Positions 40,700 to 63,853 of a stretch of DNA of 64,000 nt are shown in pieces; the stretch's first letter is position 1, and the number at the start of each line of letters is the position of its first letter. The notes below the pieces were generated by a model, which saw only the letters and a program-made list of their open reading frames with translations, was not told the origin of the DNA and ran no database searches. Origin of the DNA: Chryseobacterium sp. LJ668 (GTDB lineage: Bacteria > Bacteroidota > Bacteroidia > Flavobacteriales > Weeksellaceae); the NCBI RefSeq assembly GCF_019613955.1, contig NZ_CP080443.1, forward strand, positions 1,364,001 through 1,428,000. Reading direction: 5' to 3'. A program made the position numbers and the translations under genes.

Positions 40700-40783
40700 G
40701 CCCTGGTGGTGGAACTGGTAGACACGCAGGACTTAAAATCCTGTGTCCGCAAGGACGTACGGGTTCAAGTCCCGTCTGGGGTA
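40700..40783 (+). tRNA. tRNA-Leu (anticodon TAA), integration target
   Basis: Class II tRNA: anticodon stem CAGGA/TCCTG with loop CTTAAAA (anticodon TAA), variable arm and T-arm GGGTTCAAGTCCC. The acceptor stem GCCCTGG pairs with C76-T82 using three G-U wobbles. Its last 13 bases are inside the 21-bp direct repeat that recurs at 63833, so the mature 3' end now comes from the island copy. Confidence 0.92.
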
Positions 40784-40791
40784 CTTTAAAA
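40771..40791 (+). repeat. Left attachment-site repeat (tRNA 3' end)
   Basis: Starts CCCGTCTGGGG and ends TTTAAAA; identical over 21 bases to 63833-63853. Thirteen of the bases are the 3' end of tRNA-Leu, eight are downstream of it. Confidence 0.92.
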
Positions 40792-40823
40792 GCCTGATAA
40801 TCGTTTGATTGTCAGGCTTTTTT
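40788..40823 (+). terminator. tRNA cluster terminator supplied at the left island end
   Basis: AAAAGCCTGA (40788-40797) pairs with TCAGGCTTTT (40812-40821), then more T. It starts inside the attachment repeat. A different hairpin occupies the same position at the right end. Confidence 0.8.
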
Positions 40824-40829
40824 GTTTTA

Positions 40830-40851
40830 GCGTGCAGTAAATGTGCAGTAA
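40830..40851 (+). repeat. Left copy of paired TGCAGTAA boxes (candidate integrase arm sites)
   Basis: GCGTGCAGTAAAT followed by GTGCAGTAA; two TGCAGTAA boxes start at 40833 and 40844. The right copy at 63706-63727 has the same spacing and orientation and differs at one base. Confidence 0.75.
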
Positions 40852-40940
40852 TTTTATTTTTACTTGGCTTCCTCAATAGCATAAAAGTATGATTAAAGGA
40901 TCTAGATATTTTTAAAATTCTAGAAAAGTTGCAGAATCAA

Positions 40941-43412
40941 TTATATCTCAGATTCTATTTCAATCTCATTTTCTATTCTAATCAGTTCGTAAATCGGAAT
41001 ATTAGAGCCTAATATCTCCAATGAAACGGTTAAGGCATACGGAATCTCCTCCTTATCTAGATCCCAGCCCTGATGACCTAAAACAGCAATATGAATCTCT
41101 TCAGGTAATTCATATGACTTTATAATTGCCCAATCTTTTTGCAAAGAACTTCGATTCCTATTAATATCTTTAACTGCACCCCAGTTTGATTGTTCTCGGA
41201 TTTTGAATTGTATTACCTCACTAGAAAAATTCTCATCTGATTCTCCATCATGTACAAAATCACTTAAAGTACGCTTTCTAAAGTCGTCGTAAGTATCATT
41301 TAAATTTGAGCATTTCCATTCTAACCAAGTTGATAGATATGATTTAGTCTTTTGCCTAGTTCTTCTATTTTTGGCTGTAAATCCTAACGTGATCTCTAAT
41401 AAGACATCATATGAATCTCCAGGATCTCGAAGCTCGGCAGGAATTTTTAGCGAATAAATTTGTGCTTCCTTGGCTTTAACAAAATTAGTATTGTATAATG
41501 TTATTCTATGTTCAGTGTTATTAGTTACTCTTTCTAGTGAAGGTATGCCGTAACCAAAATGTTTTATGCTAACGGTAGTAGGATTATAGAAATGGTCATT
41601 TGGCAATCTTGCCCCCTGTACTAGTAGAGCCCTTATTAAATTAACATTTTCGTCTTTATACAGTTTAGAAAGTTCCGCAGCAATGTGAGTAACCTTCGGC
41701 GTGGCATAAGATGTCCCGACACTCTCTTGATTAAAGGCACTCCCTCCATCTGTAGTTGTTCGCAAAAGCTCCGATGATGTATCCTTATAACTTATTGTAA
41801 ATAAACCATTTTTAGATACTTGCATCCCTCCACCATATTCAACAACATCTGGCTTAATGTGTCCCCAAATGCCAGTTCCTATTCGAGAGTAAGGAGCGAC
41901 CTCATTTTCGTTACCTATTGAAGCCCAATCAACATTGTCTAACGAAAGATGGTTAATTGATCCTACAGAAATGGAGAAGCTACTTTGAGCAGGGTTTGCA
42001 AGCCTACAATAATTTCGTTCTAAATAATGTGGATATGGATATTTATTCAAAGAAAGATAGTGTTTTATTACATGTGAGTTTATATTGCCAACAGCATTAA
42101 TAAATAATACATTTCTTTCGTAAATCAATTTATCAAGCATTGCCGCCCAATTGCTCATATGTTTAGTCCTGAAAGATGCTGTCGAAGAAATCGAAAGATT
42201 AAAGATTTTACAATCATCATTTTCTTCAACAATTCTTTTCATTAACTCCGCAGGGAAATGGTGTTCAAAATTATTGTTATGATCGAGAACTCTCAGGTTA
42301 CGTACAAAAAATGGTAATTTGTACTCAGAAGTTAAATTAGACAATCCTTTTGGATATAATGCTGCTCCAGCGACTTTTGTACCATGTCCCCCTCTACTTA
42401 CTTTATCAGCTGTAGAGCTATCACTTGTTAAATATGATCGTGAATTTTCAGGCTTAATTGCTGAACTTAAATATTTATGTCCTTCCATAATACCACTATC
42501 AATAATGCCTATTTCAGGAGAATCTTCTTCTGGTGGCAATATCTCCGCATTACAATCCAATGTTTTAGCTTCAATTCCTAAGTCAGAATTAATTGATTCA
42601 ATTTCTCCGACTTCGAAAACAAAAGGATAATTTATTACAAGATCTTTCAATCCCCTTCCCGAGAGAGAGATATGGCAACCAAAACTATCCTCAAGATCAA
42701 TCAATCCACTGTGTAGTTCGGCGTTATAAAAACGTATGAATTTAAGAAAATGTGCTTCTCTTTCATCATACTTTAACATCCTATCATCATATTGCTGGTA
42801 GTACTTCGCTAACCTTTTTTTACCACCATGCTTAGTTGCATCAGGCATCGCACCTAATGGCATATCGAAGGCGATAGAAACTTCTAATTTGTATATTTCT
42901 TCATCATTAATCGTTTCCCATTTTTTCTGAAGCTCTGGAGTTAGAATGTGCTGAGGTTTCCAAATTTTTCTATCTCCAGTTATTATTTGCCAAAATTCGG
43001 CAATCTTTTCACCACCTCTTTCTTGTGAGAAAAAAAGTGAAATTTTTTCCTGTAAACTTCTTAGACTATCAGTGGATGCTCCAATTATAAAACCGTCATT
43101 TTCTTCGGATATAATTTCAATGCCAAATTTATGTAAATCAAAATTTGCATCAGAAAACAATGAGGGATTTAATTGCAGATAAACAGGGAAAACATCTGCT
43201 GCCAATGGTGCAAGATTCAATTCTTCTCTCTGCACAATGTACCCAGTCCATTCCTTGTTCAAAATGGTTGTTTTCCGTAATAATTCTATACTATACTCTT
43301 TCCTATTACTTTTATTTTTTAATGTTTTAGGGTTTATAGGAATTATACTTCTATCAAATTTTGCTGTACCAACTATCTTTTCCGAAAATTTTAGATGAGG
43401 GAATTTATTCAT
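40941..43412 (-). CDS. ietS: Subtilisin-like serine protease of an IetAS-type system
   Basis: An 823-residue S8-family protease with no signal peptide, so it is probably cytoplasmic. The catalytic set is complete: Asp305 in EIGIIDSG, His343 in GGHGTKVAGAA, Asn443 in INAVGN (oxyanion) and Ser568 in VGTSYATPKV. About 300 residues precede the protease domain and about 200 follow it; these I do not recognise. The AAA ATPase gene ends 7 bases upstream. An AAA ATPase followed by an S8 protease is the IetAS arrangement, first described in plasmid incompatibility and later as anti-phage defence. Assignment rests on this architecture, not a search. Confidence 0.85.
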   Translation of the reverse strand: MNKFPHLKFSEKIVGTAKFDRSIIPINPKTLKNKSNRKEYSIELLRKTTILNKEWTGYIVQREELNLAPLAADVFPVYLQLNPSLFSDANFDLHKFGIEIISEENDGFIIGASTDSLRSLQEKISLFFSQERGGEKIAEFWQIITGDRKIWKPQHILTPELQKKWETINDEEIYKLEVSIAFDMPLGAMPDATKHGGKKRLAKYYQQYDDRMLKYDEREAHFLKFIRFYNAELHSGLIDLEDSFGCHISLSGRGLKDLVINYPFVFEVGEIESINSDLGIEAKTLDCNAEILPPEEDSPEIGIIDSGIMEGHKYLSSAIKPENSRSYLTSDSSTADKVSRGGHGTKVAGAALYPKGLSNLTSEYKLPFFVRNLRVLDHNNNFEHHFPAELMKRIVEENDDCKIFNLSISSTASFRTKHMSNWAAMLDKLIYERNVLFINAVGNINSHVIKHYLSLNKYPYPHYLERNYCRLANPAQSSFSISVGSINHLSLDNVDWASIGNENEVAPYSRIGTGIWGHIKPDVVEYGGGMQVSKNGLFTISYKDTSSELLRTTTDGGSAFNQESVGTSYATPKVTHIAAELSKLYKDENVNLIRALLVQGARLPNDHFYNPTTVSIKHFGYGIPSLERVTNNTEHRITLYNTNFVKAKEAQIYSLKIPAELRDPGDSYDVLLEITLGFTAKNRRTRQKTKSYLSTWLEWKCSNLNDTYDDFRKRTLSDFVHDGESDENFSSEVIQFKIREQSNWGAVKDINRNRSSLQKDWAIIKSYELPEEIHIAVLGHQGWDLDKEEIPYALTVSLEILGSNIPIYELIRIENEIEIESEI

Positions 43413-43419
43413 TTGTATC

Positions 43420-44415
43420 TTATCTGTTTAAGGCGAGGTTCTCTTCCAAAGCATTGTCTAAATCTTGTACCGAAATGTCTTTTTGAGAGTTTATGACTGC
43501 TTTCTTAGCAGCATCATTAGCAATTTTCACGATAATCGCATAAGACAAGCCTAACATGCTAGTTGCATATTCACTGAGATCTATTTCGGAACTTAAATTT
43601 AGTGCTGAAAAAGACATCCTCAGCAATTCAATGATTTCTTTGTCCGTTGGTCTTGGAAATTCTATAAAGTCATCAAATCTCCTGAAAAGTGCTTTGTCTA
43701 AACTCCCTTCTAGATTTGTGGTTGCAATAAGAATTCCTTCTCCATCATATTCTTCTAAAAGTCCTAAAAGAATATTAACAATTCTATGAATTTCACCTAC
43801 ATCATTTGACTTAGTATCTCTTTGCTTTCCAATTATGTCAAATTCGTCTAGTAATAAAACACATGGGTAATCTTCCATACTTTCAAATAGACTTTGTAGA
43901 TTTGAAGCAGATTCGCCTAAATATGAGGATATAATCGAATCGAATCGTACCTTATAAAAAGGTAATCCTAATTCCCATGCAATTCTTTCGGCAGCCATAC
44001 TTTTACCACAACCGGAAGAACCATAAAGCAATATTTTTTTTCGTGGTTTCAAGCCGTGATGCGCCAATCTTTCTCTGCCTAGATATTCTTTTTCAATTCG
44101 TAAAATTTTGGTTTCAACATCCGGTGTTAAGATCATTTGATGTCGCAGTTTGTCATGATCCAAATGTGAAGCTAATGGTAATTTATAGCGTCTATCAACG
44201 GGTACTTTGTAAATTTCTTTTGCTAGCTTTAAGACAGGTTGGTTAAATTCAATCTTTGATTGATTAGTGATCAAAATAGAATTTAGTTTTTCAGCTAATT
44301 TTACATGTCCTTTTTTCCTTTCTTCTTCAATAATACTATATGCAACTTTCATCAAAGAAGTATTTTTGTCTCCTTCGATAGTTTTAAAAAGTCGTGTTAG
44401 TAATTCCTGATTCAT
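43420..44415 (-). CDS. ietA: AAA ATPase of an IetAS-type system
   Basis: A 331-residue AAA+ ATPase. The Walker A is GSSGCGKS (132-139), Walker B is CVLLLDEFD (Asp190, Glu191) and the Arg-finger segment is ALFRRFDDFIEFPRP. A short N-terminal helical part precedes the ATPase domain, and ERLAHHGLKPRKKILLYG is the usual lead-in. It probably couples ATP hydrolysis to the paired protease; substrate recognition is unknown. A TAATTTTG box sits just upstream on the minus strand (44433-44440), and the gene is first in its operon. Confidence 0.85.
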   Translation of the reverse strand: MNQELLTRLFKTIEGDKNTSLMKVAYSIIEEERKKGHVKLAEKLNSILITNQSKIEFNQPVLKLAKEIYKVPVDRRYKLPLASHLDHDKLRHQMILTPDVETKILRIEKEYLGRERLAHHGLKPRKKILLYGSSGCGKSMAAERIAWELGLPFYKVRFDSIISSYLGESASNLQSLFESMEDYPCVLLLDEFDIIGKQRDTKSNDVGEIHRIVNILLGLLEEYDGEGILIATTNLEGSLDKALFRRFDDFIEFPRPTDKEIIELLRMSFSALNLSSEIDLSEYATSMLGLSYAIIVKIANDAAKKAVINSQKDISVQDLDNALEENLALNR

Positions 44416-44432
44416 TAGATTTTATTATTTTG

Positions 44433-44440
44433 CAAAATTA
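44433..44440 (-). promoter_or_regulatory. -7 box of the IetAS-like operon
   Basis: Reads TAATTTTG on the minus strand, an exact TAnnTTTG match 18 bases from the ATPase start codon. No clear -33 element. Confidence 0.5.
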
Positions 44441-44550
44441 CAAATAAGCTTTAAGTACTTGATAAATAAATTCATAAATAAAAAATAATATTAGTGAAAA
44501 TTTCGCTAATACTCTAATTTAATTTTCCAAATTATTTGGCAGCTATATTG

Positions 44551-47500
44551 TTAAAGCATTTTTTGCCTAGGTAGCCCAATTTCATGTTCCTGTGGATAAG
44601 GTTTTCTAAACGTCATGCTTACATCTTCCTTTAAGCTTCTTGCTGCTTCTCCAGATTTTTCCTTGTCCATTGAATATCGAGGGTCAGGAATAAACGGCAT
44701 CTTTGCCATCTTATGAATTGTAATCGTTGGAAAATGAAAATCAACTTCCACAGTTCCGAGAAGTAAATAACAACCACCTCCCTGAAAAGGATATTGCTCT
44801 AAACAGTTGGGAAAATGTGCTGTATCGAAGTATTCTCCTTCAGCATCAATCCATGTTCCGAAAAACATTGTCCCTCGTTTAGTAGGCACATGCTTTCGAG
44901 AGATTAAGTACGCCAACATTTTAACTTGCCGTTTATGGTGCTTTACAAGATCCTTTGCCATCACACTACCACGGTATTTAGTTTGAAGAAGATCAAAAGG
45001 CGAATGGGAAACCGGAAAACCAAGAATTTCAATTTCGTCAAAATCATCTTCAAAAGGAAGTCTCTTTATTTCCGGAAGCTTGTATTCCCGTTGTGGCTCT
45101 TCAAGCAAAGTTAAATGCCTATATTCAGGCTTAGAATTAGTCAGCAGAAATCTAGCTTGTATAAGTAATTCGTGCTTTTGTTTTCCTGTAAACCTGAATG
45201 CTCCAACAAAGATCAAAGTTTGTATGGTTTCAATACCAATGGGGATTCTTTTTATTAAATTTTCTAGCGATGTGTATTCCCCATTTTTCTTTCTTTCAGT
45301 AGGAATCATTTCAGCAAGACGAACTTCCAGACTTTCGATGTGCATCAATCCTAAATAAACATCTTTATCATAAACAGTAGTTTGAAACTCACTGCGGTTT
45401 ACACAAGGATTGTTTATTATTGCCCCTGACATTTTAGCTTCATGTACATAGACTTCTGTTCGATAGAAACCACCACCATTATTAATAGCACACACCATAA
45501 ACTCAATAGGATAATAAACTTTGAGATATAAACTCTGATAACTTTCAACCGCATAAGAAGCCGAATGAGCCTTACAAAAAGAATACCCGGCAAAAGATTC
45601 GATCTGTCTGTACACTTCTTTGGAAAGCTGTTCAGGATGTCCAAGTTGCTTGCAGGATTCGAAGAAGTGATCTTTTACTTTTTGCAATGCTGTCAAAGAC
45701 CGTCCTTTTCCGCTCATAGCTCTTCTTAAAACGTCACCATCAGGAGCGGAAAGACCTCCGAAGTGGAGAGCGATTTTAATTACATCTTCCTGATAAACCA
45801 TAATTCCATAAGTCTCTCCAAGCTCTTTTTTAAAAACATCATGAAAGTATTCAAATTTCGTAGGATTATTATGCCTGAAAATGTATTCTTTCATCATTCC
45901 ACTCTGTGCTACACCCGGACGGATGATCGATGATGCAGCAACCAATACTTTATAATTCTCACACTTTAATCTTCTTAGAAGACCACGCATCGCCGGACTT
46001 TCGATATAAAAGCATCCAATTGTTTTTCCGATGCTCAAGAATTCATTACATCTTGCTTCATTTTTAGAGATCGTTGTATCTTTAATGTCAACTGTAATCC
46101 CTTTTTTTTCTTTTATAAGATCAACAGTATCTTTGATTGTCCCCAACCCTCTTTGAGAGAGAATGTCAAATTTTTCGAATCCTATATTTTCAGCAACGTG
46201 CATGTCAAACTGAACAATGGGAAATCCTTTTGGTGGCATTTCCAGAGCCGTAAAATTTGTGATTGGTTCTTCAGAAATAAGAATACCACAAGAGTGCATA
46301 CTTCTTTGATTAGGAAATTTTTCAAGTAGTTTTCCATATTTATGAACAAACCTGAATACGGAATTATCATCATGCTCACTCATAGGTCTTGTTGCAAGAG
46401 AATCAAGTTCTTCTTTCGGTAAACCAAAAGCTTTTCCTACTTCCCTGAAAATGGAACGGTACTTAAATTCTACATTTGTTCCACAAAAAGCAACGTGATC
46501 TTTACCGTATTTTTGAAAGATGTATTCTAAGATGATGTCTCTCGTCTGCCAACTCCAGTCAATGTCGAAATCCGGTGGCGTTTTCCTATTAAGATTCAGG
46601 AATCTTTCAAAATATAAATCAAGCTCCAACGGACAGATGTCTGTAATTCCTAAACAGTAGCTTACAATAGAATTTGCACCGCTTCCCCTGCCAACATGCA
46701 TAAATCCCATTTTGCTGCTGTACTGCACGATATCCCAAGTGATAAGAAAATAGCCGCTAAATTTTAATTCGTCAATTACCGCCAATTCTTTCTCTACTCT
46801 CGCTTTAGCTTCAGCATTGTCACAGGAGTATCTTTTTTCTAAACCTTCGTACGCGAGTTTTGTAAGAAGTTTAAAATCGTTCTCACGGCTGTCAGTAAAG
46901 AATCTTTTGTTCTTAGGTGTTGAAAAATCAAATTTAAAACTGCACTTTTCAATCAATTTAGCTGTATTGGCAATTATTTCCGGAAGATTTTCAAACGCTT
47001 TCAAAATCTTCTTCTTCGGTAAAAATGTTTCCGTTTTTCCACAACAGTCTTTTTCGGTAAGCATTGAGATAAGTGTATTGTTATCTATAGCCCTGAGAAT
47101 ACAGTGCAGATTATATTCCTGCTTTGTTTTAAAAGTAACAGGTTGTAAGATGACCATTTTTCCAACCAGTTTTTTCAGTTCAGGTTTGAAGATAAGATTA
47201 ATTTCTTCAGATCGTATTCCAATGTATTCATCTTCTGAAAGTTCTTCTGGAATATTATGGATGGGGTAAATAATGATGGTGTTCTTAAGTTTTGGGTTAT
47301 GTTTAGGAATTTCAACCTCATCACAATTGTAAGCAGTGAGCATTCTGTTGATCTCACCAATTGCTGTTTGATTCTTTGCAAGGCAAATGTATAATTGCTC
47401 ATCTTGTACCCTGACATCAACTCCAACAATAGGTTTTATTGAATGTTCTTTACATAGATTGTAAAAATCATAGATTCCGGTAATGGTGTTGATGTCGGTT

Positions 47501-47604
47501 AAAGCTAATGCTTTAAGCTTGAACTCTAGTGCCTGCTGAACCAATTCTTCGATAGAAATAGTTCCATATCGCAGGCTGTGATATGAATGACAATTTAGAA
47601 ACAT
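44551..47604 (-). CDS. DnaE-type DNA polymerase III alpha subunit (DnaE2-like, translesion cassette)
   Basis: A 1017-residue C-family DNA polymerase. An N-terminal PHP domain is followed by GRGSGANSIVSYCLG near residue 307 and the catalytic PDFDID motif at 344-349. Helix-hairpin-helix and OB segments follow. The PHP metal site is partly altered at the start (Asn4 where family members often have His). The length and pairing with a Y-family polymerase fit an auxiliary, damage-induced polymerase rather than the replicative one, which is usually longer. It starts 8 bases after the Y-family gene, so they are one operon. Confidence 0.88.
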   Translation of the reverse strand: MFLNCHSYHSLRYGTISIEELVQQALEFKLKALALTDINTITGIYDFYNLCKEHSIKPIVGVDVRVQDEQLYICLAKNQTAIGEINRMLTAYNCDEVEIPKHNPKLKNTIIIYPIHNIPEELSEDEYIGIRSEEINLIFKPELKKLVGKMVILQPVTFKTKQEYNLHCILRAIDNNTLISMLTEKDCCGKTETFLPKKKILKAFENLPEIIANTAKLIEKCSFKFDFSTPKNKRFFTDSRENDFKLLTKLAYEGLEKRYSCDNAEAKARVEKELAVIDELKFSGYFLITWDIVQYSSKMGFMHVGRGSGANSIVSYCLGITDICPLELDLYFERFLNLNRKTPPDFDIDWSWQTRDIILEYIFQKYGKDHVAFCGTNVEFKYRSIFREVGKAFGLPKEELDSLATRPMSEHDDNSVFRFVHKYGKLLEKFPNQRSMHSCGILISEEPITNFTALEMPPKGFPIVQFDMHVAENIGFEKFDILSQRGLGTIKDTVDLIKEKKGITVDIKDTTISKNEARCNEFLSIGKTIGCFYIESPAMRGLLRRLKCENYKVLVAASSIIRPGVAQSGMMKEYIFRHNNPTKFEYFHDVFKKELGETYGIMVYQEDVIKIALHFGGLSAPDGDVLRRAMSGKGRSLTALQKVKDHFFESCKQLGHPEQLSKEVYRQIESFAGYSFCKAHSASYAVESYQSLYLKVYYPIEFMVCAINNGGGFYRTEVYVHEAKMSGAIINNPCVNRSEFQTTVYDKDVYLGLMHIESLEVRLAEMIPTERKKNGEYTSLENLIKRIPIGIETIQTLIFVGAFRFTGKQKHELLIQARFLLTNSKPEYRHLTLLEEPQREYKLPEIKRLPFEDDFDEIEILGFPVSHSPFDLLQTKYRGSVMAKDLVKHHKRQVKMLAYLISRKHVPTKRGTMFFGTWIDAEGEYFDTAHFPNCLEQYPFQGGGCYLLLGTVEVDFHFPTITIHKMAKMPFIPDPRYSMDKEKSGEAARSLKEDVSMTFRKPYPQEHEIGLPRQKML

Positions 47605-47612
47605 AATAAAAT

Positions 47613-48755
47613 TTATTTTAGTAATCCTGAAGCCCGACCGACACTAGCAGTGCCGAACCTGTTTTTGATATTGTCCATTGTCTGATACAATGAGATCAAT
47701 TCTTCAGTATCTTCGAACAGATTCATTTGATGACAACCGTGAACCAGTCCGGTAAACTTAACTCCTATCAACCGAATTCTTATTCGTCTTGTATATAGTT
47801 TCCTAAAAAGCTCAAGTACATATTTCAAAATTGAATGATCTGCTGATGTGTACGGAATTTTGCACTGCTTCGTTTCGGTATCGAAATTACTGTACCTGAT
47901 CTTCACGACAATCACTGACGTAAGCCATTTTTCTGCTCTCAGTTGGTAGCATAATTTTTCTACCATGCCGGACAATATACTTCTCACATTAACAATATCT
48001 ATGGTGTCCTGAGAAAATGTGTCTTCAGTAGAAATCGATTTTCTCTCTGAATACTGAACAACAGGCGTATCATCAATGCCATTAGCTTTCTTCCATAGAT
48101 CACTTCCGCTTTTTCCGATGAGCCTATGCAAGACATCAACAGGCATTGCGGATAAAGTCTCTATTGTCCTAACTCCTAATCTTGATAAAAGTTGGTACGT
48201 TACATTACCGACCATTGGAATCTTCTTAACGGAAAGAGGATTTAAAAATGATTGAATGTTCTGTTCTTTGATCTCGAATCTTCCTGTAGGCTTTGATTCG
48301 CCTGTCCCTATTTTTGAAACAGTTTTGTTTGCTGACAAGGCAAAGCTGATTGGTAAACCGGTGTTTTTTTTAACGGCTTCAGCAATCTCAGTCGTCCATT
48401 TGTAACATCCAAAAAACTGATCCATTCCAGAGAGGTCAATGTAAAATTCGTCAATGCTAGCTTTCTCTAAAACGGGCACTCGCTCCTGAATAACATCAGT
48501 TACCATATGAGACATATTCGAATACATTTCCATGTCCCCTTTGATCACCCTTGCTTCCGGACATAATCTTAAAGCCATCTTAATAGGCATTGCGCTTCTA
48601 ACCCCAAAGTATCTCGTTTCGTAAGAACAGGATGCTACTACACCACGATCTCCACCGCCGATAATTACAGGCTTATTCTCAAGTTCTGAGTTCTTCAGTC
48701 TTTCACATGACACAAAAAAAGTGTCTAAGTCCATATGTACAATCGAGCGATTCAT
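47613..48755 (-). CDS. dinB: Y-family DNA polymerase (DinB/Pol IV type)
   Basis: A 380-residue translesion polymerase. The catalytic residues are present: Asp9 in HMDLDTFF, and Asp102/Glu103 in ASIDEFYID. The thumb and little-finger regions follow. Having these residues separates it from ImuB, the inactive Y-family member of related mutasomes. Translation starts at 48755, four bases after a TAATTTTG -7 box, so the message may be nearly leaderless. It heads the operon with the DnaE-type polymerase and is divergent from an S24 repressor gene. Confidence 0.9.
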   Translation of the reverse strand: MNRSIVHMDLDTFFVSCERLKNSELENKPVIIGGGDRGVVASCSYETRYFGVRSAMPIKMALRLCPEARVIKGDMEMYSNMSHMVTDVIQERVPVLEKASIDEFYIDLSGMDQFFGCYKWTTEIAEAVKKNTGLPISFALSANKTVSKIGTGESKPTGRFEIKEQNIQSFLNPLSVKKIPMVGNVTYQLLSRLGVRTIETLSAMPVDVLHRLIGKSGSDLWKKANGIDDTPVVQYSERKSISTEDTFSQDTIDIVNVRSILSGMVEKLCYQLRAEKWLTSVIVVKIRYSNFDTETKQCKIPYTSADHSILKYVLELFRKLYTRRIRIRLIGVKFTGLVHGCHQMNLFEDTEELISLYQTMDNIKNRFGTASVGRASGLLK

Positions 48756-48759
48756 TTGT

Positions 48760-48767
48760 CAAAATTA
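48760..48767 (-). promoter_or_regulatory. -7 box of the polymerase operon
   Basis: Reads TAATTTTG on the minus strand, ending four bases before the dinB start codon. In the 61-base space shared with the divergent repressor promoter. Confidence 0.65.
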
Positions 48768-48790
48768 GATACTAATTATCTCAAAATAGT

Positions 48791-48798
48791 TATATTTG
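48791..48798 (+). promoter_or_regulatory. -7 box of the S24 repressor gene
   Basis: TATATTTG, exact TAnnTTTG match, directly left of the palindrome and 18 bases before the ATG. No TTG at ideal spacing upstream. Confidence 0.6.
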
Positions 48799-48800
48799 CT

Positions 48801-48815
48801 GGTATAAATTATACC
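48801..48815. promoter_or_regulatory. Candidate LexA-like operator (perfect 15-base palindrome)
   Basis: GGTATAA-A-TTATACC: seven-base arms around one central base. It sits between the repressor -7 box and its ATG (two bases later), an ideal position for autorepression, and 46 bases from dinB. A weaker GATA...TATC symmetry lies at 48768-48780 near the dinB box. Confidence 0.75.
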
Positions 48816-48816
48816 A

Positions 48817-49578
48817 ATGTCAATTTTTTCAGATAACATCAGGTTTCTAAGGGGTCAGAAAAATCTCTCTCAAGCAAAAACAGCAGAAGAACTTTTAATT
48901 ACAAGAGAGCGGTATGCTAAGTATGAGGACGGTCGATCTGAACCGCCCATTGAAATCCTTTTGCGGATCTCTAAATACCATAAAGTGAGTATTGATTTGC
49001 TGGTTGCTATTGATATACAGAAATATCCGCTTGATGATATTGTTAAACTACCGGAAAACAGGATTGTCCTTCCAATCAAGGTTGACAAGACAGGAGAGAA
49101 TAAAATTGAATTGGTAACTCAGAAAGCGAAAATGGGCTATGTAAATGGTTACGATGATCCTGAATTTATCGAAGCTCTTCAACATATTTCACTTCCGTTT
49201 TTGAGAAATGGGAAATTCCGGGCGTTTCCCGCTGAAGGTGATTCGATGCCACCGTATAATGACGGGACATATTTCGTTGGGAAATACATTGAAAGCCGGG
49301 ATGATTTAAAGAAGGGAAATACTTACATTTTTGTTACAAAGGATGGAATCGTTTACAAGCGTTATTCAGCTCAAAACGATAAAGGAAACTTTGTAAAATC
49401 AGACAATCAATTTTACGAACCGTATGAAATTGAATGGGCAGAGGTTAGAGAAATTTGGCAGTTTGCTGCAAGCATTAATACTAAAGAGCTGACCGTTGAA
49501 AATTTTGAATTTCAGACAGTGAAAAATATGTTCGAAGAAATTAATGCAGGAATTAAATACTTAAAAACATATTCATAA
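48817..49578 (+). CDS. XRE-S24 LexA-like repressor of the polymerase cassette
   Basis: A 253-residue protein with an N-terminal XRE helix-turn-helix (FLRGQKNLSQAKTAEELLITRERYAKYEDGRSEPP) and a C-terminal S24/LexA-type peptidase. The catalytic pair is Ser143 in FPAEGDSMPP and Lys181 in GIVYKRY. The expected self-cleavage region reads KAKMGYVNGYDDP, with Met106-Gly107 where Ala-Gly is usual; whether it still self-cleaves is open. It is divergent from dinB-dnaE, with a perfect palindrome at its start. Self-cleavage under DNA damage is inferred from the family. Confidence 0.88.
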   Translation: MSIFSDNIRFLRGQKNLSQAKTAEELLITRERYAKYEDGRSEPPIEILLRISKYHKVSIDLLVAIDIQKYPLDDIVKLPENRIVLPIKVDKTGENKIELVTQKAKMGYVNGYDDPEFIEALQHISLPFLRNGKFRAFPAEGDSMPPYNDGTYFVGKYIESRDDLKKGNTYIFVTKDGIVYKRYSAQNDKGNFVKSDNQFYEPYEIEWAEVREIWQFAASINTKELTVENFEFQTVKNMFEEINAGIKYLKTYS

Positions 49579-49810
49579 ATCTATTACTATCTCTAATTTC
49601 AATTTCCGCAGTAGTTCTGTCACAAAGAAAAATAGTCATTTGCAAAGGGATACTAAATGATCTTTCAATAATATAATTTAGTTTAGTTTATGAATTCATG
49701 CTAAAATCAAGCTATATCAGTGCGACTATAAAATTTATCTAATAGTTGTGATGAAATCATGTGGCAAGAAATTGAAATTCTAATATAGCTACCCAAAATA
49801 AGGTTCTACT

Positions 49811-52516: not shown

Positions 52517-52520
52517 AAAC

Positions 52521-52554
52521 AAAAAGGAGCCTTCTTCATTGAAGGCTCCTTTTT
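52521..52554 (+). terminator. Terminator after the isochorismatase-like gene
   Basis: 14-bp perfect stem AAAAAGGAGCCTTC/GAAGGCTCCTTTTT with a six-base loop. Confidence 0.9.
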
Positions 52555-52815
52555 GTTTCTTTATAAATAATAGTTATTTTGACGCTTTCCACCAAAAGGG
52601 TTAATCAATTTAATACTTATCTCCAATTATCGTAATACGTAGTTTTTATTATTGTCGAATAGTTGCTTTTTACTTAGATTCTACTGTAAAGTTTAGCAGT
52701 TGTGCGATATTAAACTCAAGGATAAGGTTTATGTTCAGTGATGATCTTCGGTAAAGGATTTTAGAAAAAATACCCGCAATAATATCGTGGGCATTTTACA
52801 AGTATTCCAACAGTT

Positions 52816-53301: not shown

Positions 53302-53313
53302 GTAAAAGATTGT

Positions 53314-54009: not shown

Positions 54010-54057
54010 AGATATCTGTTTTCAGGCACAGTCCCAATGCCATTATTAGAATGCAAA

Positions 54058-54215
54058 AAGCGTGGAACTACAGCTTAATTTGCAAGGAGAGGTTCTGGTT
54101 AACCTAATACTACAAACAAGTGTAGCCCACGCCATTACAGGCGAGGGCATTAACTCGTTCCGCAGTATTATTTGAAATGTACCAGATTTCTCCTTGCAGA
54201 ATGAAACTAACGCTT
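54058..54215. ncRNA. Candidate structured RNA or cruciform element (158 nt)
   Basis: Several nested inverted repeats are in register: AAGCGT (54058) with ACGCTT (54210); TGCAAGGAGA (54081-54090) with TCTCCTTGCA (54189-54198); TCTGGT (54094) with ACCAGA (54181); TAATACT (54105) with AGTATTA (54164); and an apical hairpin GCCC..GCC/GGC..GGGC (54125-54148). An alternative GCGTGG/CCACGC pairing also exists. It is non-coding and more GC-rich than its surroundings. It may be a structured RNA, a recombination site or an origin. Strand cannot be decided. Confidence 0.5.
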
Positions 54216-54364
54216 CGTTATTTTTCGATAAATTTTAGGATGTAAATTTAACACTCTTAAAACATAAAAACGCACTATTATTTTATTTTTTTAAAAGAAA
54301 ATGTTTCTATCATTGAGATATAGTAGAAAAACTATTAGATTTCGATGATCAGAATTTGGCTCCA

Positions 54365-55006: not shown

Positions 55007-55090
55007 CGGTTAAAGTTTCGCTCATAGTAAATATAAAAATTTTTTAGTAATCCTGATTACTGATCAAAAAAATGGTAGTTAAATTACTTT

Positions 55091-55130
55091 TTACACGCTC
55101 TCCTGTCGGCTTTTGCGGTTTCATCTTTGA
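55091..55130. repeat. Copy A of a diffuse island repeat (ACACGC...GCGGTTTC...TTTGAA)
   Basis: Shares spaced identities with 58605-58640 and 60275-60315: TAACACGC-type start, C-rich block, TTTGC, GGTT/GCTTC, then TTTCAAA. Each copy lies in an intergenic gap upstream of a minus-strand gene. Confidence 0.35.
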
Positions 55131-55163
55131 ACACGAAAATCATTTATATCTGGTGCTCATCAT

Positions 55164-55388
55164 TTACTTGTGATTTGGTTCTTTCATCGGTTCACAAAAT
55201 TTACCTAAATAATATTCATACGAAATTGATACGGTCGTAATTAAAAGATGGAAGGCGGGAAATAACCACGTAAAAGAAGTATTCAATTCTATAACTCTAT
55301 ACACAAGATAACATGTGCTAATTAAGATGCAAAAGCAAAACACTACCATTAATGATGGATAACACATACAGATTTTTCTATTTTTCAT
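55164..55388 (-). CDS. Small two-helix membrane protein
   Basis: A 74-residue protein with two hydrophobic helices (about residues 11-30 and 38-56) and a short basic start. Several Cys residues are in the first helix region. No family recognised. It could be real or a chance frame; the ATG with a plausible length and the membrane pattern favour a gene. Confidence 0.4.
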   Translation of the reverse strand: MKNRKICMCYPSLMVVFCFCILISTCYLVYRVIELNTSFTWLFPAFHLLITTVSISYEYYLGKFCEPMKEPNHK

Positions 55389-55529
55389 AATATAAAGATA
55401 AACAGCATGTACAAAAATCTACTTTTGCTTAATTTAATAGAGTACTACTAATTCAAATATTACTAGAATATATCTGGAAAAAGGCAACCATGATGATATA
55501 TTCTGATAGTCTAGTTGTGTTAAAATAAA

Positions 55530-55555
55530 ATGGTAACAGCAAAAGCTGTTACCAT
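55530..55555 (-). terminator. Terminator of the large PAS kinase gene
   Basis: Perfect 11-bp stem ATGGTAACAGC/GCTGTTACCAT with loop AAAA; T-rich on the minus-strand side, about 160 bases past the kinase stop. Confidence 0.75.
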
Positions 55556-55711
55556 CTTCTAAACAAATTAGAGTATAGATAATTTGTGCGGCTAAATATA
55601 CAAATAATAATTATACTGGTAAGGGATTTAAGCTCCTGCTAAATGTAGGAATGAAATAATAAAAGTGGCAGCAATATTAGTGGTTAGTATGCATAAAAGT
55701 TTATTAAATTG

Positions 55712-58408: not shown

Positions 58409-58779
58409 TCCTAAAAAAATGCTAATATAAGATAAAGATACATATTAATTTGATTGGTTTGTTATGGAAAATGATGCGTTTTTTTTAAAATGAATATTTG
58501 CAAACTAACCTAATTGGGACTTGTTGAGAAGACTTAGTCATCTAGTGTTAGTCACTATCTGTATATAGATACCATAAAAAAGTCAGGTATTTTAAAAACA
58601 TTTTAACACGCGCCCCCGGTTTGCTCGGTTCCGTTTTCAAAAAAAATATCTACAGTATATCAACTGAAGATTTATTTAAAACTGACATCTTTAATTGCCG
58701 GCAACGCATAATCACGGGACGGTCTAGATCAAATACGCTGCATACTTTTGAAATAGTTCCTGTAAACGACTGAATATAT
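58409..58779. other. 371-base intergenic region between the two PAS kinases
   Basis: No coding frame found. It contains copy B of the diffuse island repeat (58605-58640), with a CGCGCCCCCGG block. No promoter was recognised. Confidence 0.4.
58605..58640. repeat. Copy B of the diffuse island repeat
   Basis: AACACGCGCCCCCGGTTTGC then TCGGTTCCGTTTTCAAA; shares spaced identities with copies at 55091 and 60275. Confidence 0.35.
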
Positions 58780-59871
58780 CTAAATTGATGACGACCCCAT
58801 CTTTATAAATATCTTAAAAATAGAGCCTTTCCCCGGTTCGCTTTCCAATTCAATTCTGCCCCCTGCTGCATCGACCATTGTTTTTACTAAGTATAAACCA
58901 ACGCCAGAACCTTCATTCGTATTCTTTACCCTTTGGAACTTCTCAAAAATAAGTTTGCATTCCTCTTCGTTCATGCCTATTCCCTTATCAGCAACACTAA
59001 ATACAGTATATTCTTTTTCTCTGACACTTGTGATCGTAATTTCAGGATTATGGTCTGTGCTTGTATATTTGATTGCATTACTCACCAGATTATAGACAAT
59101 ACTGCGAAGCTTTCGTCTGACAAATGTGACTTCTGAGCATTCGAGGTTCACATTAATAACGGCTTTTGATTCCTGAATTTGTGGGGCAAGGGTTAACCTT
59201 ACATCTTCCAGTATACTCTCCAAGTCAATCAATTCTTCTGCTGCCACTTTGCTATGTTCCTTCCAACGGGAATCCATCAAATCACTAATTACTTTCTTCA
59301 TAGATTCCAAACTATTCTCTATATTATTAAGTAATACCGGAAGTTTTTCCATGTTTTTCTTTTCCTGCAATCTTCGCAGAAGCTCAGTTACCATCCCAAT
59401 TCCATGAATAGGATTTTTTAAATCATGGGCAACGGTATCGAGTAACAGTTCGTGTTCAGTAATCATACTTTCCTGCTCTTTCAGATCACGTATGCGGGAG
59501 GTGATGTCAACAAAAGTGATAATAACACCATTCATTTTATTTTCTTTACGAACGATATAAGGCAGAATGTTCATCTGATACCAGCGAAGATCCGTTGTCT
59601 GTATCTCCTTTTCTAAAATTTTCCTTGTAGCAATAACTACTTTGATATTATCAATGATCGAGTGGTAACGAAAATTTTCTTCTACTTCTTCCAGTGGCTT
59701 TCCGATAAACTCATTTTTCAGGTTAAAATGCTTCATCGCCGGAGGGGTAAATTTTCGTAGTATCAAATTGGCATCTACGAAAAGCTGGGGGATGATCGTA
59801 TTGCTAAAATAGTTTTCCAGCTCTTCATTGAGTTCGATTAATGAGACTATTTGTTGACTTTTATTCTGCAT
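58780..59871 (-). CDS. PAS sensor histidine kinase
   Basis: A 363-residue soluble kinase with one PAS domain (about residues 25-130; FVDITSRIRDLKEQ ends it) and a C-terminal kinase core. The phospho-acceptor is in LLDTVAHDLKNPIHGI. The ATP-binding motifs YNLVSNAIKYTS, DKGIGM and GSGVGLYLVKTMVDAAGG follow. It is an orphan with no response regulator beside it. It could cross-talk with the larger kinase downstream; this is not shown. Confidence 0.92.
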   Translation of the reverse strand: MQNKSQQIVSLIELNEELENYFSNTIIPQLFVDANLILRKFTPPAMKHFNLKNEFIGKPLEEVEENFRYHSIIDNIKVVIATRKILEKEIQTTDLRWYQMNILPYIVRKENKMNGVIITFVDITSRIRDLKEQESMITEHELLLDTVAHDLKNPIHGIGMVTELLRRLQEKKNMEKLPVLLNNIENSLESMKKVISDLMDSRWKEHSKVAAEELIDLESILEDVRLTLAPQIQESKAVINVNLECSEVTFVRRKLRSIVYNLVSNAIKYTSTDHNPEITITSVREKEYTVFSVADKGIGMNEEECKLIFEKFQRVKNTNEGSGVGLYLVKTMVDAAGGRIELESEPGKGSIFKIFIKMGSSSI

Positions 59872-60274
59872 AGGAAAAGTTGGTATTTGGCGTTTACATT
59901 ACTAAAGTACAAAATTAAGGTGATGTTATATAATTCCAATGAGATTAATGCAGTGATTTAAAAACCAGCACTATACTTATAGCTCAATTTCTCACAGTGT
60001 TGCTAGTTAGCAGAGACCATAACTTTATCTTTGTAAAAGACCCTATCTTCCTGCTAAGCAGCAATAACCTACGATACGACATTCCCCACTTCCTTGCGAT
60101 TCATCGTGTAGTAAAGCAAATTCACCACAATTGCCGTGGATTTGCGTGGTATAATGGTGCGTTATTATTAATTAACGCTAAAATTTTTGTTCGGTAAAAA
60201 TCGAGAGTGGAGAGTTGTTAGGTTAAGTATATATATACATAGTACAATAAAAATCAACCAAATTGAAAATCCAC

Positions 60275-60315
60275 TTTAGCCCGCCCCCCTTCGATTTGCT
60301 TGGCTTCATTTCAAA
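60275..60315. repeat. Copy C of the diffuse island repeat
   Basis: AGCCCGCCCCCCTTCGATTT, then GCTTGGCTTCATTTCAAA; the spaced identities with copies A and B are clearest over the C block, TTTGC and TTTCAAA. Confidence 0.35.
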
Positions 60316-60441
60316 AATGAAAGTCGATTTATCTAGGGGCTTGCCGTGTGCGCTGTGGATCTGTTTAGTAGTTTCGTTTTCTACTTGGAAACGAAACGAA
60401 CCTTAAAGAAATCAGGAGAAAAAATAAATTTCTAATACCCC

Positions 60442-60471
60442 CCCGTATAGAAAAAAATATTTCTATACGGG
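60442..60471. repeat. 12-bp perfect inverted repeat near the Rep-like gene
   Basis: CCCGTATAGAAA (60442-60453) and TTTCTATACGGG (60460-60471) around a six-base A/T loop; no T run follows on either side, so it does not look like a terminator. Confidence 0.7.
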
Positions 60472-60681
60472 CTAAGCCGATCAGCATGAGTTCTACAAAT
60501 CCACACTGTTTTCACATGTATAAAACTAAATCTTTAGTTTAGTGACGTTTTAAAGTATGCAAGTATTACTAGAAGGCATCGTAGCTATAAGTTTTCTTAA
60601 CATGATAATTAAATCTCTTACTTATATTATTTAACGCACCTCCCGCTTTAACTACCAGCTATATAATAAAAATGTAATTCT

Positions 60682-60723
60682 CATGCAGTCGTATGCGCAT
60701 GTTACTGTATGGTCACGCCATAC
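60682..60723. repeat. Tandem small hairpins
   Basis: CATGC/GCATG (60682-60686 with 60697-60701), followed by GTATGG/CCATAC (60707-60712 with 60718-60723) around loop TCACG. Confidence 0.45.
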
Positions 60724-60766
60724 TATTTAAAAGTATTTTGTAAATGAACATCTATCTTCCTACTGT

Positions 60767-60814
60767 TATAACTTCGAACCATTAACGGTAAATTCTATTG
60801 ACGTTCGAATTATA
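60767..60814. repeat. Inverted repeat upstream of the Rep-like gene end
   Basis: TATAACTTCGAAC (60767-60779) with GTTCGAATTATA (60803-60814), one base missing in the right arm, spacer 23 bases. Confidence 0.5.
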
Positions 60815-60929
60815 ATGTAGAAGCTGGATTTTTATCATTGTTCGCCGTAAACATATTTTCATGCCCTCGACTTCTATATCCCTCCATTTTTACATAAGTT
60901 GGAATTTGTTAGATTAAAATTTAATAAAA

Positions 60930-61811
60930 TTAGAGCTGAACATAGTTCAGGTTAGATAAAACTGTGGAAAACGTAACATGATTGAAATCTTGCACCTTTT
61001 TCAATATTTGCCTGAATGTTTTAGAATGTATACTATTACGTCCAAGCAACTGATAATATCTTTTTTTCTTTCTACTAAAAGTTTCTCTACAGCTGTTGTC
61101 CAAGATATTAAGCCAGAATTCAGTATAGAAGTATTCTTTTCCTGATTTAAGTGAATCAAAAATTATTAAATCATTCCATTTCTTAAGGATAATCTCGGAG
61201 CATTTTATGTAGGTTTCAGGGTTTAGTAGGTCGTCTAATGTAAATATTTTATTACTGTTCAAAAATTTTGATTCTTTAGTCGTCCATTCTATACGCAACA
61301 GATTAGGAGGTGTGAACTTTGGAAACTGGATTGATTTATTATAAATTTTTAAGCCGAAATATGATGTTCCTACAAAATATGCATCATCATAAACTTTATC
61401 TCTTCTAAATTGTTTCCTCCCCAAAAATCGTAGGTGGCTAAGAAAATCCTTAATATTCATTGGGAGCTCAATATTTAAACCAAATTCTAGTGCTGTAATT
61501 TTACAAAGCTCTGGGGTAATGCCGAATAAATTGCAGAAGGAAATAATTGTGTTAATACAGTCCAAAGGTGTGAAGTCATCACAATTGTGAACACCATCAT
61601 TTTTAAGGTAATGTAAGCTGCCGGAAATTTCGAGCCTGTTTTCAAACTTTTTAAACATCATATTTTTGTACATTTTTGTAAAAATAGTTTTCCATTCTCC
61701 AGTTTCTTCGACACCGTATGAATACTCTGTTAATTTTGTTAATTTAGGATTACTCCATATCAAGTCTATTAGCTTAATGTTCATTAAGCAAATCTTTATG
61801 TAATCAGCCAT
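60930..61811 (-). CDS. Putative replication-initiator-like protein (phage Rep type)
   Basis: A 293-residue protein I cannot place firmly. The segment EISGSLHYLKNDGVHNCDDFTP resembles the N-terminal region of small phage and plasmid replication proteins found in Flavobacteriia (rolling-circle-like initiators). No clear HUH motif is visible, so an active endonuclease is not proven. The region beside it is full of inverted repeats. Alternative: an unrelated island protein. Confidence 0.4.
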   Translation of the reverse strand: MADYIKICLMNIKLIDLIWSNPKLTKLTEYSYGVEETGEWKTIFTKMYKNMMFKKFENRLEISGSLHYLKNDGVHNCDDFTPLDCINTIISFCNLFGITPELCKITALEFGLNIELPMNIKDFLSHLRFLGRKQFRRDKVYDDAYFVGTSYFGLKIYNKSIQFPKFTPPNLLRIEWTTKESKFLNSNKIFTLDDLLNPETYIKCSEIILKKWNDLIIFDSLKSGKEYFYTEFWLNILDNSCRETFSRKKKRYYQLLGRNSIHSKTFRQILKKVQDFNHVTFSTVLSNLNYVQL

Positions 61812-61891
61812 ATAGGTATATTTGTCTTCGACAAAATAATTGTCGAAAAGAATTAATGTAATTTAGTAGGCTAGTAGAATAGCCTTTTAGT

Positions 61892-62236
61892 TTAAAATGT
61901 AAAGCCTGTATTGAATGGTCGTGTCCTATGACGATTAAGGGAATGGCTACGAAGTACTTCTCTAAGGTTTTTTTTCAGCAAATACATTATAGCAGTTGCC
62001 ACATTACACGTGGTAACTTTTTGTTTACTGTAATCCACCAAAGCTTCGTTTTTTAGTAAGGCATACTTCGCAATGAGGTATGAAGTTGGTGAAAAATGTA
62101 ACTTTACAGAAAATTTGAAAGAAGTTTCGATATCTGGAAGCCTATTTACGGTATGCTCCAAATCTTTTGCAAATTTGTGAGCTTTGTAAATTTCTTGTAT
62201 TCCGTGATCGATCAAAGATGCAGGAATTGCAATCAT
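61892..62236 (-). CDS. Small hypothetical protein
   Basis: A 114-residue basic, helical protein with no family recognised. Its start overlaps the stop of the excisionase-like gene by four bases (ATGA), so translation is coupled and it may help control or mobilise the element. The C-terminus is rich in Arg and His. Confidence 0.5.
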   Translation of the reverse strand: MIAIPASLIDHGIQEIYKAHKFAKDLEHTVNRLPDIETSFKFSVKLHFSPTSYLIAKYALLKNEALVDYSKQKVTTCNVATAIMYLLKKNLREVLRSHSLNRHRTRPFNTGFTF

Positions 62237-62505
62237 CTTCTTAAATTTTTCTTTTTAAGTAAAAACTTCGATGCTTCCGTTTCAATTTCATCGTTAGAGC
62301 TGATTCTGTTTTTAAATAAATAATCATCAACGTCTTCTTTTTTAAAGTAAATAACTTTACCTCCGGGCTTATAGTGCGGTATTTTCCTATTAAATATTAG
62401 TTTGTAAATATGCTTTTCAGATAATCCTGTGTAAAGTGATAGCTGTTTCACAGTCATTATATTCCGTAAAAACTCGAGATTTATCATATCTGTTATATCT
62501 GTCAT
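62233..62505 (-). CDS. Excisionase-like HTH DNA-binding protein
   Basis: A 90-residue protein with a MerR/AlpA-type helix-turn-helix in the helix-turn-helix_17 pattern: MTVKQLSLYTGLSEKHIYKLIFNRKIPHYKPGGKVIYFKKEDVDDYLF. In integrated elements this type usually acts as an excisionase or a regulator of the integrase. It lies 107 bases downstream of the recombinase gene on the same strand. Excisionase function is inferred from context. Confidence 0.8.
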   Translation of the reverse strand: MTDITDMINLEFLRNIMTVKQLSLYTGLSEKHIYKLIFNRKIPHYKPGGKVIYFKKEDVDDYLFKNRISSNDEIETEASKFLLKKKNLRR

Positions 62506-62612
62506 TGTGTAAAATTACTCACTTTTTTACGCAATGTTTTCTTTTTTTATTAACATAAACTGCAGTATTAAATGTTATATCGCTATAAATGAGAGGTTTA
62601 TGTATTTGATAA

Positions 62613-63674
62613 CTAATCTAAATTCGAAGTCGCGGCATCTTTTATTGAATTCACGTAATTAAGATATTTTACAGTATTTTGTATAGACTTATGACCAAGA
62701 CACTGTGAAACAGTCTTTAAATCTGCCCCTTTTATCAAAAGTCTTGTCGCAAATGTATGACGCCCGCAATAAAATGTAATGTGCTTATCAATGCGGGCTT
62801 TTTTTAGCCAATTGCTAAGGGTTTTATTGATACTTGTTTCGGATATGTGCTTCCCTTGGAAAGTTATATCGAAAATTTTTTCATCTGTGGAATTTGGTGT
62901 ACCGAGTAAACTTAATGCTTTTTTGCTAAGAGCAATGTTTATTTCGGTTCCTGTTTTTATACGCTTAATAATAAGCCTATCATTAGTAACATGGTGCTTC
63001 CAACTAAATGTTTTGATTTCTGCGTAGCCTAATCCTGAATAACATGCAAATAGAAAAGCTCTTTTTATTTCATTGTTTCCGCATTCTGTTTCAAAAAGTG
63101 TTTGCAGTTCTTCTTCCGTAAGAACTTGCTTGGTAAGCATTGTATCACTTAGATCACCTCGTTTTTTAAAGTGAACTTTTCTATAAACAGATTCGTCAAT
63201 GAGTTTATCTCTATTTGCCTGTGTAATTATCTTTTTAAACCTTTTCCAGTAAGAGTGGGGGCTATCACCTTTAAGCTTTGGGTCATTATTAAGAAAGTGA
63301 CCAAACTTTAAAAAATGCGTTTCTGTTAAATCTTTAATTTTAAAATTAGGGTTTTTTATAAATTCTTTTAATTTATTGGATGCACTTTTTATCATCCTAA
63401 TATCAGCTTTATCATATGTTTCGATATAATTATCTATATAGTCGAAGAGAGAGATCTTGTCCAGATGCTTAGGTTTGAAAATAGTATCATTTGACAATAT
63501 TTCAAGCTCTCGTTGATTCCTTATAGATTCAGCGATTAGCTTTTTTTCTTTGAGATTTTCCGGCTTAACAGTAAAAAGGGTTTCATTTTTTTTACCTTCG
63601 GTTGGGGAGTAGATCGCGAGATAAAACTGAATGTTTCCGCTCGGAAGCTTTCTTTTACATAAAGTTACGCTCAT
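62613..63674 (-). CDS. int: Tyrosine recombinase / integrase
   Basis: A 353-residue site-specific recombinase: an N-terminal arm-binding part, a SAM-like core-binding domain (about residues 80-170) and the catalytic domain. The catalytic set has Lys240 (RIKTG), Arg305-His306 (GRHTFAT), His328 (LGHKS) and nucleophile Tyr337 (TVKYLNY). The first Arg position reads GLGY (Gly216), a change common in Bacteroidota integrases. The start is about 160 bases from the right attachment repeat. Acting on tRNA-Leu is inferred from the repeats. Confidence 0.92.
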   Translation of the reverse strand: MSVTLCKRKLPSGNIQFYLAIYSPTEGKKNETLFTVKPENLKEKKLIAESIRNQRELEILSNDTIFKPKHLDKISLFDYIDNYIETYDKADIRMIKSASNKLKEFIKNPNFKIKDLTETHFLKFGHFLNNDPKLKGDSPHSYWKRFKKIITQANRDKLIDESVYRKVHFKKRGDLSDTMLTKQVLTEEELQTLFETECGNNEIKRAFLFACYSGLGYAEIKTFSWKHHVTNDRLIIKRIKTGTEINIALSKKALSLLGTPNSTDEKIFDITFQGKHISETSINKTLSNWLKKARIDKHITFYCGRHTFATRLLIKGADLKTVSQCLGHKSIQNTVKYLNYVNSIKDAATSNLD

Positions 63675-63705
63675 ATTTTTTCAAGATTAAAAGATGATCT
63701 GCGTG

Positions 63706-63727
63706 GCGTGCAGTAAATATGCAGTAA
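63706..63727 (+). repeat. Right copy of paired TGCAGTAA boxes
   Basis: GCGTGCAGTAAAT followed by ATGCAGTAA; boxes start at 63709 and 63720. Same direct orientation and spacing as 40830-40851, and close to the recombinase start, so it may also be an operator for it. Confidence 0.75.
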
Positions 63728-63832
63728 AAATATGAAAAAAAAGAGTAACAAAAGATAATAAAAAGTATAACAAATCGTTTATTTATGAGGGTTTGTGTAG
63801 TAGAGTATATATGTGCTATAGTTATATGAATA

Positions 63833-63853
63833 CCCGTCTGGGGTACTTTAAAA
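63833..63853 (+). repeat. Right attachment-site repeat
   Basis: Exact 21-base copy of 40771-40791, including the last 13 bases of tRNA-Leu(TAA), but with no tRNA upstream of it. Confidence 0.92.

Follow-up and report, generated by a model that had tools for sequence, protein, structure and literature searches.

Matching box pairs and terminator-like hairpins bound a predicted integrative element at a tRNA-Leu(TAA) gene of Chryseobacterium sp. LJ668

The main finding of this work is that positions 40771-63832 of the window, the whole 64,000-nt stretch of DNA analysed here, are by their sequence an integrative element of 23,062 bp (E1) in the 3' end of a tRNA-Leu(TAA) gene, of the tRNA-targeted, tyrosine-integrase kind and similar to CTnDOT and NBU1. 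The best explanation overall, which we hold with considerable confidence, is that E1 is a site-specific integrative element that would cross over within a core repeat, use paired arm boxes at its ends and bring its own terminator to the tRNA gene. All coordinates are positions in the window, and a window position equals the position in L035, the fetched flanking DNA, plus 61000. The target gene, the repeats and the presumed recombination genes are the following.

40700..40784, plus strand: tRNA-Leu(TAA), the target gene (ARAGORN, Rfam)
40771..40791, plus strand: left core copy (attL core), exact 21-bp repeat
62233..62505, minus strand: HTH_17 protein, probable excisionase (Pfam HTH_17, 1.2e-11; TIGR01764 excise, above cutoff)
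62613..63674, minus strand: tyrosine integrase (Int), 353 aa (Pfam, structure model)
63833..63853, plus strand: right core copy, marking attR of E1 as well as the left end of E2, exact 21-bp repeat

Because the tRNA gene spans 40700-40784, the left repeat is made up of its last 14 nt and a further 7 nt. A sequence-only reading of this DNA had described an exact 21-bp repeat at both ends of the island and had taken it for the crossover core. The repeat is indeed present at 40771-40791 and 63833-63853, and its putative role as core is supported by a relative, genome G063, with which the chromosome is collinear from the third core on (L036), starting at the tRNA-Leu core of G063, and by a set of 26 elements (E1, E2 and the 24 of 43 relative loci whose far end was obtained), in which the block common to both ends is 12-26 bp of a tRNA 3' end. 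E1 thus has the features by which tRNA-targeted elements are known: flanking direct repeats, one of which completes the 3' end of the tRNA, a tyrosine integrase inside and close to one end, and an unoccupied site in a relative, here another species of the genus. That empty tRNA-Leu site, which the earlier reading had proposed to search for, was found in G063, but it is free of E1 and its neighbour E2 together (~32 kb); likewise, the island's repeats are real, but its right end adjoins a second element and not plain chromosome. The alignment to L039 (G093) begins ~120 bp behind the third core. The G+C content of E1 (34.3%) is near that of the window left of 40500 (35.0%), which counts against our reading, and that of E2 is 27.6%. 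An Rfam scan of 38000-64000 returned three tRNAs only, and one of L035 nothing. A palindromic GTAC-N9-GTAC core was considered as a general rule and dropped, being present in 7 of the 26 elements.

E2 lies mostly beyond the window and had been missed by the earlier reading. Between core and genes, the two elements carry the following features.

40788..40821, plus strand: element-borne terminator-like hairpin behind the tRNA (-20.3 kcal/mol, T-run; its AAAA foot is the core's last 4 nt)
40833..40851, plus strand: left box pair of E1, TGCAGTAA, 11 bp start to start (boxes at 40833 and 40844; repeat and pattern search)
63709..63727, plus strand: right box pair of E1, TGCAGTAA, 11 bp start to start, upstream of int (boxes at 63709 and 63720)
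63833 to ~73121 (L035 2833-12121): E2, ending in a third core copy at L035 12122
63850..63892, plus strand: terminator-like hairpin at the left end of E2 (-18.3 kcal/mol, T-run)
63903..63920, plus strand: left box pair of E2, AATCCCG, 11 bp start to start (partner at L035 ~11974-11992)

The inner repeat of 22 bp, with paired boxes in the same orientation and 11 bp apart at both ends, had also been reported and holds good, its copies at 40830-40851 and 63706-63727 being identical at 21 of 22 positions (95%). With up to two mismatches, the paired TGCAGTAA pattern is expected 0.02 times per window and was observed twice, both times exactly. Over 173 genomes of the genus, this one included, the exact pair occurs six times, twice here (at the two ends of E1) and once in each of four other genomes; no recognisable integrase was found among the ORFs of at least 90 aa in the 3-kb stretches around these four, and the L049 stretch had no ORF of that length. 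E2 encodes a type IIG restriction-methylation protein (PADLOC, 3.9e-113), an HTH protein that is a probable excisionase (phrog_66, 7.9e-8) and an integrase divided between two ORFs that share 4 nt, one with a SAM-like domain and the other with the catalytic domain. All three cores at the locus have CCCGTCTGGGGTACTT in common, and they are followed by three different hairpins, of which the third alone stands in chromosomal DNA alignable to the site of the relative. A second stack was seen in L068 and L110 at a tRNA-Leu-like end, where an internal core copy has AGTGAC boxes and the full tRNA-end match, ~8 kb beyond it, has boxes of the GTACAA type.

The paired arrangement is widespread among relatives of the integrase. 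Genome contigs provided 50 loci with such relatives, of which 43 were used, so that upstream boxes could be counted for 44 int genes including our own. Of the 44 genes, 40 have a perfect 7-mer repeat at an offset of 11 within the 110 bp preceding int, compared with at most 6 of 44 at the other offsets from 6 to 25 and about 2% of random windows. Since some of the top repeats at this offset are AT-rich stretches and not boxes (e.g., L065, L070, and L077), the count was repeated with a complexity filter, by which a 6-mer pair at offset 11 was found in 40/44 and at the other offsets from 8 to 15 in at most 3/44; the four exceptions (L057, L067, L077, and L093) have imperfect pairs. In 24 of 26 elements, the box pairs of the two ends have at least 11 of 12 letters in common, a level reached by none of 300 random windows, and the agreement summed over the true pairings was 297, the largest sum in 20,000 permutations being 278. 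Two elements, L063 (10/12) and L095 (7/12), fail here and count against the rule. Four box types are each confined to one of the 26 elements, of which they occupy both ends: TGCAGTAA in E1, AATCCCG in E2, AGTAGC in L056 and AGTACA in L059. On the tRNA side, core and box are 44-51 bp apart in 24/26 elements (median 48), and on the int side box and core are 120-130 bp apart, again in 24/26; E1 has 47 and 113, the latter off the family norm and counted against our reading, and E2 has 56 and 136, all of these values being subject to shifts of a few bases in the register of the automatic pair finder. When box classes, assigned by hand, were placed on the integrase tree, 7 changes sufficed, the minimum possible (mean of 19.1 after shuffling, with none of 200 shuffles as low), although box class is in part expected to follow the tree because of kinship. 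Conserved spacing, end agreement, geometry, integrase tree and integrase model together support the earlier proposal that the inner boxes are putative arm sites.

The idea of a genus-wide occurrence of 11-bp pairs behind tRNA-Leu did not hold up: none of 39 tRNA-Leu(TAA) contexts contains a perfect 7-mer pair at offset 11. By eye, the L013 context has an imperfect 11-bp pair, and those of L010, L015 and L022 have box-like pairs at 12 bp (GGGGGAAC, GGTGG) past the terminator; offset-12 pairs were counted automatically in 2 of the 39, and they perhaps belong to other element families at the same tRNA. In L058, L088 and L122, the core or flank of the integrase relatives fits tRNA-Glu(TTC), like the site of ICECspPOL2, as if the target had been switched and the box spacing kept.

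The integrase has 1,979 homologues at E ≤ 1e-3, of which 35 were aligned. In 42 aligned integrases (our own and 41 others), with residue places set by alignment to XerA, the usual place of the first catalytic Arg is occupied by Gly in all, Arg238 and Lys240 are invariant (42/42), and Tyr stands where the first His usually does in the 41 that have a letter there. Since Gly and Tyr replace the usual residues, activity would rest on alternative ones, a point that we counted against our reading. The structure model (mean pLDDT 85.3, pTM 0.51) begins with three strands and a helix (beta3-alpha), a predicted arm-binding fold similar to the N-terminal domain of lambda Int. By E-value, the top Foldseek hit was XerA, which has no arm domain and also counts against our reading, followed by full-length lambda integrase (1z1b, E 9.5e-11, TM 0.55), with a domain placement that differs from the model, as the rmsd is 15.7 over all domains. 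The Pfam arm domain PF17293 matches 8 of the 35 aligned homologues and not the integrase of the window. The N-terminal arm-binding domain that characterises IntCTnDOT is present in the predicted fold, and membership in that subgroup is likely. The distribution of the family in the genus is patchy, with 19/173 genomes at 1e-40 and 3/173 at 1e-100. Among viral contigs, 21 stretches matched a pattern and none encoded a relative. All matches in plasmid (104) and phage (68) records were below 60% identity (31.3% and 29.5% for the best among the matches listed), so that a close relative on a plasmid or phage is not known here.

A further component of the ends, absent from the earlier reading, is a hairpin. 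In all 26 elements, a hairpin with a T-rich run begins at most 30 nt from the core at both ends (random windows, 20/200), and on the tRNA side it always sits between the tRNA and the boxes. Its onset is within 7 nt of the core in 25/26, and a hairpin occupies the same place behind the host tRNA-Leu(TAA) gene in 39 of 39 contexts from the genus. In E1, the last four letters of the 21-bp core, AAAA, form the foot of the stem, whose G+C part is unlike at the two ends. Since a hairpin stands at every tRNA-side end, integration seems to bring the 3' end of the tRNA together with a stop signal, and we infer that the element would provide the terminator for the tRNA gene that it enters. Across elements, hairpin regions are more alike on the tRNA side than at the far end (0.67 vs 0.49 in alignment score per base), as expected if tRNA-side hairpins travel with the element. 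Counted against generality are L066 and L089, where int adjoins the tRNA and no strong hairpin stands directly behind it. In these two loci, the int-proximal end adjoins tRNA-Leu(CAA), and the core has the opposite orientation to int. In L122, a hairpin is seen by eye behind the tRNA-Glu-like gene. No description of tRNA terminators brought by integrative elements was found in the literature searched, chiefly freely readable papers.

These hairpins might instead be a spacer or a protein-binding dyad of the recombination complex and not terminators, which would suit the near-constant length from core to box, the greater likeness of the tRNA-side copies and the many stems with one A-rich and one T-rich side, thus readable from either strand; given that the T-run lies on the tRNA-sense side and that nearly all of the hairpins occupy the very place of the host tRNA-Leu(TAA) hairpin, we judge this unlikely, though worth keeping in mind. 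Another interpretation makes the boxes operators only, bound by Int, the HTH_17 protein or a host factor at the int promoter, and denies them a role as recombination arm sites. The pair does stand just upstream of int, and in 31/44 int genes a TANNTTTG-like -7 box precedes the first box by 15-21 bp (15% in shuffled upstream sequences), the median distance being 18 and the best match of E1 lying 30 bp before its box. Int on these boxes would cover the likely transcription start and may repress its own gene in E1. Such dual use is documented for intS of KplE1, a proteobacterial prophage in which arm-type integrase sites also overlap the int promoter at a tRNA; there, int lies at the tRNA side and self-repression has been shown, whereas for E1 it is predicted (PMC2951348). 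An exclusively regulatory role nevertheless strikes us as highly improbable, as in 24 of 26 elements the other end carries the same pair ~48 bp from its core, behind a tRNA and distant from int.

It could also be argued that E1 and E2 move as a single composite island of ~32 kb, from the first to the third core, as both are missing from the relative's site and CCCGTCTGGGGTACTT is common to the three cores. We find this rather improbable, since the E1 boxes flank E1 alone, the different boxes of E2 flank E2 alone, and the E2 integrase is in two pieces. We are equally doubtful that E1 is a decayed, immobile remnant whose ends have persisted: the 18 scanned proteins do include neither a relaxase nor a phage structural protein, but the integrase and HTH_17 frames are open, the core is exact over 21 bp and the box repeat has a single difference. 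We retain the reading of E1 as a site-specific integrative element.

The genes carried by E1 include the following.

40941..43412, minus strand: IetS-like S8 peptidase (PADLOC E 2.4e-50; below NCBI equivalog cutoff)
43420..44415, minus strand: IetA-like AAA ATPase (PADLOC E 3.9e-74; below NCBI equivalog cutoff)
44551..47604, minus strand: DNA polymerase III alpha-like protein (Pfam; NCBIfam TIGR00594 above cutoff)
47613..48755, minus strand: Y-family DNA polymerase, Pol IV-like (Pfam IMS, NCBIfam)
48817..49578, plus strand: HTH repressor with a weak S24 match (HTH_19 1.4e-11; Peptidase_S24 4.3e-4, below Pfam cutoff)
60930..61811, minus strand: 293-aa protein, perhaps a rolling-circle replication initiator (weak; low-confidence model, Foldseek)

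Further proteins are two with cyclic-nucleotide-binding domains (Crp/Fnr-type), one of the isochorismatase family and two PAS histidine kinases. By the tRNA-side end (40941-44415), the homologues of IetA and IetS adjoin as in IetAS, yet they fall short of the NCBI equivalog cutoffs (131 of 900 and 208 of 510 bits needed), and they are likely a divergent anti-phage gene pair. From 44551 to 49578, the HTH/S24-like repressor is divergent to two polymerase genes, that of the Y-family enzyme and that of a second DNA polymerase III alpha, an arrangement resembling a damage-inducible mutagenesis cassette carried by a mobile island. A perfect 18-bp inverted repeat with a 6-nt loop (52517-52558), located immediately behind the gene of the isochorismatase family, is probably a strong terminator. 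No relaxase, conjugation or phage structural gene was found among the 18 scanned proteins, and E1 in this set thus lacks the relaxase gene of NBU1-type mobilizable elements, which is present in the relative L068. The 293-aa protein has two other homologues at E 1e-3 and one more in L058 (local BLAST), and no convincing family match; its model (mean pLDDT 68.3) resembles 4cij (E 2.4e-4, TM 0.36) and Inoviridae G2P (E 3.8e-8, TM 0.44). If truly an initiator, it could, at a guess, replicate or mobilise the circle.

The attachment site of E1 is presumably comparable to those of the lambda or P2 type. CTnDOT and NBU1 likewise have a Bacteroidota tyrosine integrase, with an N-terminal arm domain that in E1 is predicted, and the CTnDOT integrase also lacks the usual first catalytic Arg, for which an alternative Arg is described (PMC8138268). 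The core of NBU1 overlaps the 3' end of a leucine tRNA gene, as in E1 (PMC10865867), whereas its integrase keeps the usual Arg, in place of which the E1 family has Gly, together with Tyr for the first His (41/41); a His-to-Tyr change is described for the IntDes subgroup (PMC8138268). The 10K genomic island of Riemerella anatipestifer, from the same bacterial family (judged from the relatives named), shares a tRNA target and an IntN1-like integrase, and its excision and circularisation have been shown (PMC6764341). It differs in its Arg-tRNA target and in a 53-bp repeat that appears to hold a hairpin inside (PMC6764341), while the hairpins of E1 lie outside the repeat, save for the A-rich foot, and are unlike at the two ends. 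ICEEaII and ICECspPOL2 of Elizabethkingia and Chryseobacterium insert into the 3' end of tRNA-Leu-CAA or tRNA-Glu-TTC, like relatives of E1, but are conjugative and up to 116 kb in size (PMC8694125), unlike E1, whose 18 scanned proteins include none for conjugation. The nearest statement on terminators in the literature searched concerns the fis PICIs, which restore the end of the target gene and whose identity block can reach into a rho-independent terminator; there the terminator is within the shared block, whereas elements of the E1 type each bring their own (PMC10111431).

From the ends described above, we infer how binding, excision, termination, autorepression and transfer may proceed. 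Int is probably heterobivalent like lambda Int, with the catalytic part on the core and the N-terminal domain on the paired direct boxes. In the excised circle, a box pair would be followed by ~113 bp, the core, ~47 bp and the other box pair. Crossover in the core would preserve the 3' end of the tRNA, the 47-bp interval would bring a terminator that takes over the end of the tRNA transcript, and the host's own terminator would end up at the island's far end. Through the boxes next to int, the integrase may in addition repress its own promoter, and excision is probably directed by the HTH_17 protein. As E2 has the same core and other boxes, each integrase should recognise its own element.

More generally, we tentatively propose, with doubt still slightly outweighing confidence, a family of Bacteroidota elements with a portable end cassette, in which stacked elements share the core and have private arm codes (TGCAGTAA vs AATCCCG). 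Since such a cassette would unite the tRNA 3' end, a terminator and arm sites at fixed spacing, integration would preserve the transcription of the tRNA as well as its sequence. What stands out in this element of a known kind is a conserved end design, whose generality is worth testing. For Bacteroidota, it offers a rule for locating and delimiting such elements: the tRNA end is followed by a hairpin and, ~48 bp on, by a box pair with 11-bp spacing, which recurs ~123 bp inside the other core. The rule also tells apart stacked elements with common cores. Two testable questions follow: must an integrative element bring a terminator to the tRNA gene that it enters, and does the sequence of the arm boxes alone decide which integrase moves which island? 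If the proposal is true, private arm codes would let one tRNA gene gather a stack of separately movable defence islands.
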